DNA of 5,645 bases from Deltaproteobacteria bacterium (GTDB lineage: Bacteria; DRYD01): positions 1 through 5,645 of the forward strand of contig JAPYWL010000067.1 in NCBI GenBank assembly GCA_028276365.1, given 5' to 3'. Below are positions 1 through 3,238 of this stretch, in pieces. The notes under the pieces are model-generated. The model was not told the origin of the DNA. It searched no databases and saw only the letters and a program-made list of their open reading frames with translations. The stretch's first letter is position 1. The number at the start of each line of letters is the position of its first letter. The position numbers and the translations under genes were made by a program.

Positions 1-1127
1 GCTATTATTGTAGAATTAGAACCAATAAAAGAATTGGATTCTATAATAGTTTGGTATTTATTTACTCCATCATAATTAGCTAAAACAACACCAGCACCTA
101 CATTAACATTTTCTTTTATAATACAATTCCCTAAATATGCCAAATGACTACACTTTACACTAAAAGATATTTTGGTATTTTTTAGTTCAACAAATGCTCC
201 TATTTTATTACCTTCAATTATTTCATTATTTTCTCTTAAATTACTAAAAGGACCAATTTTATTGTTATTTACTATTACATTATTATTAATAAAAGAATTA
301 ACAATATTATTTTTATTTCCAATTCTTGAGTTCATAATAAAACAATTAGGACCTATTTTATTAAAATTACCCTCTATAACACTATTTATTATAAATACAT
401 TATCCAATACTAAATTTTCTTTATTTATATTACTTAATGGGCATATAAATATATTATTTCCTAATAAAACAACATCTTTATATATGTTTTTTACTATTTT
501 TTTAGATTCCTCAAAAATCAATTCAAAATCTTTTAAAGAATTTATCCTTAGAAAATAATTACTTACATCTTTATCATATGTAGTATAACTTTTAACATAA
601 TTTTCATTAAAACCTATACTATTGAGAAATTCCAATAATTCTTTTAAATTAAAAATCTTTTTAATTAAAATATTTCTTATTATTTCCCAACTTTCACTTT
701 TAAAAATAAATGAAAATTTATATAATTCCATTGAATTATTCAAGTATTTATCAGAGTAAGAAACTAGTTTTTTTTGATTATCTTTAATAAAATCTAAAAT
801 TATATCAGTATTATAGGAAATCAAAGGAGTATTAGCAGGTAAAACTATAAATGTAATTTCTTCTTTATTATCAATTAAATTTAGATCTTCATAGATTAAA
901 ATATTTATATTATCTAAAATCTTATCAAAATATTTTTGAACGTAACTTCTATTTAAATTAGATGTTATTAAATTAATTTCTATGGATATATTATTATTTT
1001 CTAAAATACTTTTTAGATTTATAAGCTTTAAAAGTAAAGGCTTTAAAAGTGGATAAATATAAAAATCATCGGTGTATTTAAAAAGCTCATCTTCTAAAGG
1101 TAAATAAATTTTAAAAAAATTTCTCAT
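1..1127 (-). CDS. glmU: GlmU-like protein: intact acetyltransferase domain, degenerate uridylyltransferase domain (C-terminus off window)
   Basis: GlmU normally acetylates glucosamine-1-phosphate (C-terminal left-handed beta-helix) and then transfers UMP (N-terminal Rossmann-like domain) to make UDP-GlcNAc for peptidoglycan and LPS in the cytoplasm. I translated 375 complete codons from ATG at 1125-1127. Residues about 225-375 are hexapeptide-repeat beta-helix with clear GlmU motifs: IGPFSNLREN, HLAYLGN, VNVGAG, NYDG, FIGS. By alignment from memory, R298, K316, H328, Y331, N342, N351, K357 and S370 match E. coli R333, K351, H363, Y366, N377, N386, K392 and S405 with no indel. The N-terminal ~200 residues align in outline, but LAAGxGTRM is replaced by LPLEDELFK, the QxxxLGTGHA motif is absent, and YGDVPL reads PANTPL, so the metal-binding Asp105 becomes Asn99. 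About 45 residues lie beyond the left edge. No in-frame alternative start exists before an upstream stop near 1170. No good Shine-Dalgarno is near the ATG; AAGGAAAG lies about 25 bases upstream. Confidence 0.9.
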   Translation of the reverse strand, partial: MRNFFKIYLPLEDELFKYTDDFYIYPLLKPLLLKLINLKSILENNNISIEINLITSNLNRSYVQKYFDKILDNINILIYEDLNLIDNKEEITFIVLPANTPLISYNTDIILDFIKDNQKKLVSYSDKYLNNSMELYKFSFIFKSESWEIIRNILIKKIFNLKELLEFLNSIGFNENYVKSYTTYDKDVSNYFLRINSLKDFELIFEESKKIVKNIYKDVVLLGNNIFICPLSNINKENLVLDNVFIINSVIEGNFNKIGPNCFIMNSRIGNKNNIVNSFINNNVIVNNNKIGPFSNLRENNEIIEGNKIGAFVELKNTKISFSVKCSHLAYLGNCIIKENVNVGAGVVLANYDGVNKYQTIIESNSFIGSNSTII

Positions 1128-2077: not shown

Positions 2078-2505
2078 TTACTCATACTTTTTTACGCTTA
2101 TAAAAATAATATATTCTTTTAAAAATTGAATTATTTGATCAATATTTTTACATTTATTTTTTAATTGCTTTTTAAAATTAAAAATAAATAATTTATTAAT
2201 AAATCGTTTTATATAAACTCTTTTATTAACTTTCCCAATTTTTTTAGAAATAGAAATAAAATAATAAAGAAAAGTTTTATTTTTGTATTTTAAATAATCC
2301 TTCTTAAAATGATGGAAATTATCTAAATTAGGTATTTTAAAAACTTTAAAGTTAAAAACTACAAAATCATTTATTTTTCTTAAAAGTATATTCTTTTTTA
2401 TTTTAAATTGTAAAATAGAACTAGATTTTAAATCTTTAAAAAAAAATCTACTTGCTTATTAGAAAGACTCTTTAAATAGAAATTATTATAGATTTTAAAT
2501 TTCAT
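2078..2505 (-). CDS. rnpA: RnpA-like RNase P protein subunit, interrupted by a frame change at a T9 run
   Basis: The ATG at 2503-2505 follows the stop of the upstream methyltransferase gene by 10 bases. Frame 0 closes after 25 codons at TAA 2428-2430. If the T9 run (2438-2446) is read with one extra base, or the ribosome slips -1, an uninterrupted frame continues to TAA at 2078-2080, giving 142 residues. A run of about 118 sense codons is unlikely by chance at this AT content. The product is small and strongly basic, as RnpA is. Residues 84-107 contain SISKKIG, then KRVYIKRFINKLF, matching the RnpA signature (B. subtilis SVSKKIG, then RNRIKRLIRQAF). Near the end EYIIFI resembles the KDYIIIA strand. 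In the RNR motif the first Arg is kept (R96), but Asn and the second Arg are Val and Tyr. The usual last helix is missing. RnpA assists RNase P RNA in cutting tRNA 5' leaders. It is normally beside rpmH, which is not seen here. A decayed copy or a sequencing error remains possible. Confidence 0.5.
2437..2446 (-). other. Homopolymer frameshift site with slippery heptamer U-UUU-UUA
   Basis: On the minus strand the frame reads GAT TTT TTT TTA AAG, so U UUU UUA sits at 2443-2437 exactly in the X-XXY-YYZ register needed for -1 ribosomal slippage. A -1 slip leads to AAA GAT TTA and into the long open frame. The T9 run could equally allow RNA polymerase slippage to T10, or be a miscounted homopolymer. 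A short inverted repeat, AGATTT/AAATCT (2423-2435), follows at once but is too small and AT-only to be a strong stimulatory hairpin. Confidence 0.5.
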
Positions 2506-2515
2506 AATATTTCCA

Positions 2516-3238
2516 TTATATTTTAATTAGGTTTGATCTAATAAGGATGATAATATAAAGCAAAATAATAAAAAACCATGTCCAAGGTTCAGTTTTAATT
2601 ATAGGTAAAATTCTAAATCTTCCATACTCATTTTCTAAAGGTTTAAAATTTATTAACCACTTAGGAACATTTTTTTTATATTCTATATATTTTTCCTTAA
2701 ATTTAGATTCTAAAAATTCTTCTTCAGCGGGTATAACAAAATAGTTATAATAAATTATATAATATAAGATAGTAAAGATAGTAGCTAATAAAGAAAGAAA
2801 TAATCCATAATTTCCAGTAGCTAAAATAGCAAATCCAGCAGCTATAGTGATATTAGCTATATAAACTGGATTTCTTGAAAATCTATAAGGTCCAGTAGTT
2901 ATTAAATTAGCAATAAGTGGTTCTTCTCCCCTACTCTTTACACCTAAATAACCTAAACATATAGACCTTAAAATAGCACCTAAAATAATGAATATAGATC
3001 CTATAATAACAGAAATAAAATTAGCTTTAGCTATTATTAAAAATACAATAACAAGAGGAATCGGAAACAAAGCTCTATACCTAAACCCCATCAAAGCTAT
3101 TATATTTTTGGGCTTATTCCCTACATTGGTATTTAAACTAAAATTATTATTAAGTTTATCATCATTAACTTCATTAATTTCAGTATTATCTTTAGTAATT
3201 TGATTACTTGTAATTTTATTATCAAATTCTTTATTCAT
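2516..3238 (-). CDS. Integral membrane methyltransferase, isoprenylcysteine carboxyl / phospholipid N-methyltransferase type
   Basis: The 240-residue protein carries the signature of the ICMT/PEMT membrane methyltransferases: TGPYRFSRNPVY (115-126), then EEEFLESKF (172-180), a spaced Tyr pair (Y184, Y187) and VPKW (191-194). These form the SAM-binding C-terminal part. Hydrophobic segments at about 57-70, 73-95, 127-145, 147-168 and 219-234 suggest four or five membrane spans. Residues 1-43 are a polar, Asn/Asp/Lys/Thr-rich tail that looks disordered and is not part of the family core. Bacterial members methylate varied lipid or small-molecule substrates, and the substrate here cannot be read from sequence. 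The ATG lies 3 bases after the stop of the upstream methyltransferase gene, and the GGGG of AAGGGGTAAGGG overlaps that stop, so translation is probably coupled. The next gene starts 10 bases after its end. Confidence 0.85.
   Translation of the reverse strand: MNKEFDNKITSNQITKDNTEINEVNDDKLNNNFSLNTNVGNKPKNIIALMGFRYRALFPIPLVIVFLIIAKANFISVIIGSIFIILGAILRSICLGYLGVKSRGEEPLIANLITTGPYRFSRNPVYIANITIAAGFAILATGNYGLFLSLLATIFTILYYIIYYNYFVIPAEEEFLESKFKEKYIEYKKNVPKWLINFKPLENEYGRFRILPIIKTEPWTWFFIILLYIIILIRSNLIKI

Follow-up and report, generated by a model that had tools for sequence, protein, structure and literature searches.

The window, by which we mean the whole 5,645-base stretch of DNA analysed here, is an entire contig (C42) of a 1.59 Mb genome assembled in 124 contigs (hereafter G000). 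On its minus strand, what might pass for a 500-base gap behind a methyltransferase gene holds a gene divided over two frames, which we interpret below as rnpA, the gene for the protein component of RNase P (Table 1). Its ATG lies 10 bases after the end of the upstream gene (2505 vs. 2516) and opens a frame with the translation MKFKIYNNFYLKSLSNKQVDFFLKI, which is closed by TAA at 2430–2428. Codons 20–23 (GAT TTT TTT TTA) are occupied by a T9 run, the sole T9 of the window (A9 on the plus strand), and the heptamer T TTT TTA stands there in exact zero-frame register. The −1 frame is open from 2455, so that a −1 slip at the run enters it directly, and it ends at a stop codon at 2080–2078. Direct reading confirmed the coordinates and the register given in a preliminary description of this DNA, together with its long second frame, while the count of about 118 further sense codons proved one short of the actual 119.

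Table 1. The split gene of the window, its parts and its upstream neighbour.
Feature	Position	Strand	Basis or remark
Split gene, putative rnpA (RNase P protein component), two frames	2078..2505	-	sequence reading and profiles
Zero frame: ATG, 25 codons, TAA; putative N-terminal part of RnpA	2428..2505	-	direct reading
T9 run, proposed slippage site	2438..2446	-	T9 at the same place in the second species (G001)
Zero-frame heptamer T TTT TTA	2437..2443	-	incidental to T9 followed by A; no specific signal
-1 frame after the run: 119 codons and stop; putative body of RnpA	2078..2437	-	56% identical in G001
Upstream neighbour, PEMT/ICMT-like methyltransferase	2516..3238	-	adjoins rnpA in G001 too

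At this base composition, 118 codons would stay open with a probability of about 5e−7 and, as the arrangement recurs in a second species, the long frame exceeds what chance would give. In the ORF listing, no ORF of at least 25 amino acids started by ATG, GTG or TTG was present in this frame. An internal start was considered and rejected, since the long frame offers neither a usual start codon nor an SD-like sequence and the codons upstream are conserved (AUU starts may exist in the genus). No RNA family or terminator was found at the T run. Elsewhere in the window, the match of a GlmU-like gene (3–1127, minus strand) to GlmU is confined to the hexapeptide-repeat half, and the N-terminal half is without a family match.

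A second species of the same genus (hereafter G001) carries, behind the same neighbour gene (73% identical), the same two rnpA frames with the T9 run and the heptamer. The first 22 codons are 68% identical between the two species; the protein encoded after the run has a dN of 0.29 and a dS of 0.58, its frame is free of stops in both, and the alignment gaps within it are multiples of three. Judged by these identities, the dN/dS relation, the open frame and the gaps in threes, the two halves look selected as one protein, and the mark of a conserved frame shift, i.e., selection on both frames, is apparent at rnpA. The preliminary description had argued from the short distance to the upstream gene that the gene is real and had proposed a comparison with close relatives for the T run and the heptamer, and conservation of both frames in G001 agrees with that view. 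It had further offered three explanations, namely programmed ribosomal frameshifting, RNA polymerase slippage, and a real or artefactual loss of one base. As G001 keeps the T9 run, the heptamer and both conserved frames, the last of these appears very unlikely in the form of a dead gene and unlikely in the form of a one-off assembly error, whereas RNA polymerase slippage fits best, for reasons developed below.

The assignment to rnpA was built from several profile comparisons. With PF00825, the G001 copy scored 21.8 bits (cut-off 22.3) as the sole RnpA match in that genome and the G000 copy had no match, while TIGR00188 gave 20 and 16.1 bits for the two copies against a cut-off of 38.35; neither copy thus reached the cut-offs of these curated profiles, and the product would be a divergent member of the RnpA family with scores just or clearly below them. 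A profile of RnpA from the sister genus gave a single match in each genome, G000 and G001, and in both cases this was the split gene, with the G000 match weak when taken alone (E 0.15). The SKKIGK...KR segment aligned to the RnpA signature of the sister genus (hhalign E 1.8e−5, probability 78%), with changed positions when SISKKIGKxNKRxYIKRFIN is set against the SKKxGKAVxRNxxKR-like signature (AV.RN to xNKRx). When a two-member profile was searched against PDB, just three sequences were matched, all of them RNase P proteins, weakly (E 0.06–0.08), and the long frame gave an AlphaFold model of too low confidence for a fold search (pLDDT 48, pTM 0.33). RNase P RNA (RF00010) was detected at about 202 bits in both genomes, and HARP-type RNase P, considered as a substitute, had no match in either, so RnpA should be needed. 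No other rnpA was detected in G000 or G001, where a copy could have been missed at a completeness of 87–88%. In the sister genus, rnpA is unsplit and differently located, beside a gene that we take from its translation to be tsaD-like. Each of these lines is modest, and in combination they make a convincing case that the split gene is rnpA.

Frame switches at long A/T runs were then surveyed in 689 kb of G000 (24% G+C; about 43% of the genome) and 1,245 kb of G001 (65%), using a non-overlapping segment set, as a first survey based on ORFs had returned mostly antisense shadows of real genes. At least seven genes besides rnpA are split in both species. Their runs, where read, are T9, T10 or A10, and the run length is equal in G000 and G001 at every split gene where both were read. 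In recF (T10 in both species), the halves match TIGR00611 at 2–91 and 101–338, and in a Wzx-like flippase (T9) both halves match PF01943. The tilS gene (G000 C83) is split at T9 and a PolyA_pol/CCA-enzyme paralogue (G000 C60) at A10, each in both species. For a GT2 transferase (T10) and a DUF58-like protein (T9; named by us, as nothing useful came from Pfam), the run length is that of G001, and the split and the same offset in G000 were taken from match coordinates. The weakest case is a T10 site in a gene that we presume to be yvcK (Pfam gave CofD, PF01933), in which the upstream piece has ten codons. In the sister genus, full-length ORFs were found for recF, the GT2 transferase and rnpA in at least three genomes, for tilS in three of four and for the DUF58-like gene in one, and the PolyA_pol family is full length in general.

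Other candidates from the survey were set aside. Out-of-frame pairs at T7/T8 and weak T8 pairs were judged from the listings to be stops in the frames, antisense frames or gene junctions, and an A8 pair near a radA-like start (G001 C8) represents ordinary adjacent genes. In one sister-genus genome (G004, C41, run at 118), tilS is split at the same codons by T11, near the start of a contig and apparently in the opposite direction. Three of the eight split genes (rnpA, tilS, and the PolyA_pol paralogue) have a role in tRNA maturation, whether by chance or through a functional link.

All eight sites would be brought into frame by one extra base (+1) or by a −1 move of the ribosome (P = 0.008 if the direction were random). 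The run has 9–10 bases at all eight wherever it was read, and seven of the eight are T runs, though A runs are commoner in conserved genes. What they do not share is the heptamer: the recF and yvcK sites read TTT TTT TTT TAA (TGA in G001 recF) and the flippase site GTT TTT TTT TAG in G000 and CTT TTT TTT TGG in G001, all without U UUU UUA. In intact conserved genes, zero-frame T TTT TTA was counted 225 and 180 times in the two genomes (about 115,000 codons) against 237 and 222 expected from synonymous shuffling. Since it is near its expected frequency in intact genes and missing at the recF, yvcK and flippase sites, the heptamer is no special signal, and a role for it as the distinguishing mark of programmed ribosomal frameshifting is not supported.

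Long runs, by comparison, are scarce in frame. In conserved genes, T runs of at least ten were found 0 and 0 times (11.1 and 10.2 expected) and A runs of at least ten 1 and 0 times (17.5 and 12.5 expected). A few in-frame T9 runs do occur in conserved genes, and G001 has a T10 within an ORF of 704 codons; these exceptions count against the polymerase reading. U UUU UUU is likewise depleted in genes (107/164 and 102/158). Part of the run depletion is attributable to mutation and not to coding selection, as runs of nine or more fall off faster than shorter ones outside genes too; that AT-rich genomes select against long runs in their genes is known (PMC1088944).

Ribosomal −1 frameshifting on the U run (U UUU UUU or U UUU UUA), possibly programmed, would join the frames from an unaltered mRNA. 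In its favour, U UUU UUA stands in exact register at rnpA and is conserved in G001, every T9/T10 site contains U UUU UUU, the −1 direction suits all eight sites, and the product of a slip on U UUU UUU would differ little from that of RNA polymerase slippage; the depletion of U UUU UUU in genes is predicted by both mechanisms, and a test for phase-specific depletion of T7/T8 did not separate them. A ribosome would need no more than seven Us, yet T7 and T8 yielded no conserved split that was convincing, and U UUU UUA is, as described above, neither common to the sites nor rare in intact genes. Stimulators also appear to be missing, as no stretch downstream of the sites folds beyond −0.4 kcal/mol at 70 °C, folding at the rnpA site (without pseudoknots) is no better than in shuffled sequences, and no SD-like motif stands in the 30 bases upstream of it; among 11 sites checked, such a motif was present upstream of one, tilS, inside the P-loop codons. 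We consider the ribosomal explanation unlikely on these grounds, though one to be kept seriously in mind.

If sequencing or assembly had shortened true runs of 10–11 by one base in both assemblies, the genes would be intact and one more base would put all eight sites in frame. Both genomes are metagenome-type assemblies in which in-frame runs of ten or more look missing, as such an error would have it, but the same assemblies do contain runs from T10 to A26. A sequencing or assembly error is also blind to the coding strand, yet T runs make up seven of the eight sites, against an expected excess of A runs (P about 0.016), and this asymmetry speaks against it. Furthermore, about 24–29 in-frame runs of at least ten would be expected per genome in the compared genes, far above the three genes split there (rnpA, recF, and the flippase). 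A systematic error of this kind strikes us as improbable.

The genes could instead be pseudogenes or phase-variable, with the run length flipping in replication. Runs of such length are unstable in general, and a G000 gene (C50, 105–113) is broken at A9 while the matching G001 ORF is continuous. The long rnpA frame, however, is without stops and shows dN < dS in two species, both genomes have the RNase P RNA and no RnpA besides this one was found in them, the affected genes are mostly housekeeping genes, and the run lengths are equal in both species where both were read, all of which makes decay or phase variation highly improbable here.

RNA polymerase slippage at the T9 run, with the split state fixed in the genus, is the reading that we favour for the expression of rnpA, and we give it a probability of roughly two in three. 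It fits best, given seven other genes with splits in the same direction at T9, T10 or A10, several of them without the heptamer, which is itself frequent in intact genes. An A/T homopolymer of about nine bases or more lies at the rnpA frame transition in both species, as is looked for in transcriptional slippage. We propose that the polymerase would slip backwards on long T runs, and occasionally on A runs, so that some transcripts gain one U; the slipped share of the rnpA mRNA would yield full-length RnpA, while on faithful transcripts ribosomes would stop after 25 codons. Fixation of the split state would date from the ancestor of the genus or earlier, and the T run would be retained because the protein depends on it. 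We infer the slippage, its level and the production of RnpA from the sequences. The majority of T runs matches the behaviour of the E. coli RNA polymerase, which slips preferentially on poly(T), needing at least 7 T and more for A (PMC6260861), and in E. coli and Buchnera, slippage at A/T runs leads predominantly to insertions, for the most part of one base (PMC5574713). Against the polymerase reading, it has to be weighed that the data come from two genomes of one genus, both of them metagenome-type assemblies at 87–88% completeness, that the family scores of rnpA are near or below the cut-offs, and that a DpnII-family restriction gene in G001 (C24, 3976–3985) is split at A10 in the direction opposite to the eight, maybe as a lost or variable gene.

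Several known systems resemble parts of this arrangement. In Buchnera and Blochmannia, as here, an AT-rich genome carries genes split at homopolymers whose full-length product is proposed to come from slipped transcripts, with 12–50% corrected transcripts for the frameshifted genes restored at poly(A) (PMC5009743). Those are insect endosymbionts with poly(A) runs, in contrast to the mostly T runs found here in a lineage from hot-spring metagenomes, in which the same splits are fixed in two species and in eight core and envelope genes. In mxiE of Shigella flexneri, overlapping frames are joined, as would be the case in rnpA, by an extra U at a U run, and slippage is required for the longer product (PMC1088944); this is a single regulatory gene in another phylum, demonstrated experimentally. 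The polymerase also slips at a run of nine (A9) in dnaX of the thermophile Thermus thermophilus (PMC1088944), where the shorter product is the one that needs slippage and the full-length one is encoded in frame, whereas in rnpA slippage would lead to the full-length protein. The tssM1 gene of Citrobacter rodentium is likewise interrupted, and slippage at a homopolymer (A11) restores it, with two length variants as the outcome (PMC4256274); it is a single secretion gene with an A run in place of the T run of rnpA. Programmed −1 frameshifting at X XXY YYZ (E. coli dnaX type) shares the net direction and, at rnpA, a heptamer in register, but no stimulator was found here and the heptamer is not common to the eight sites and is frequent in intact genes. 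Our literature search, which covered few subscription papers, returned no report of an rnpA expressed via a frameshift, and a survey of 1,106 prokaryotic genomes (PMC3711429) uses neither 'ribonuclease P' nor 'RecF' in its main text.

The phylum of the organism is small, with seven genomes in the comparison set, and one record from the sister genus is Candidatus Calescibacterium sp. Octopus Spring has yielded a Calescamantes population, described in work on springs of about 80 °C (PMC4791363), and we infer a thermophilic, free-living way of life for the window's organism. Several core proteins of these bacteria probably depend on polymerase stuttering. A wider view, in which homopolymer slippage would be a standing part of gene expression in the genus, with core genes such as rnpA, tilS and the CCA-enzyme paralogue fixed one base wrong and in-frame runs of at least ten purged elsewhere, is put forward tentatively and with somewhat more doubt than belief. 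Slippage rescue was previously known from insect endosymbionts and from single genes elsewhere; if confirmed here, it can be fixed across species in core genes, in a lineage from hot-spring metagenomes. Gene finders would report rnpA as missing or broken, and RecF, TilS and others as truncated, in both genomes, while the eight sites offer natural material for telling polymerase slippage from ribosome slippage.

A separate group of conserved ORFs, which have neither an early ATG, GTG or TTG nor a long run, was rejected as frameshift candidates, as they look like cases of AUU/AUA starts. It comprises a truD-like gene (G000 C6, plus strand near 32508; G001 C6, minus strand near 27295), a zinc-ribbon membrane protein (G000 C9, G001 C26) and a permease-like gene (G000 C26, G001 C27), in each of which an AUU/AUA codon follows an SD-like sequence, and the genus may use such starts.
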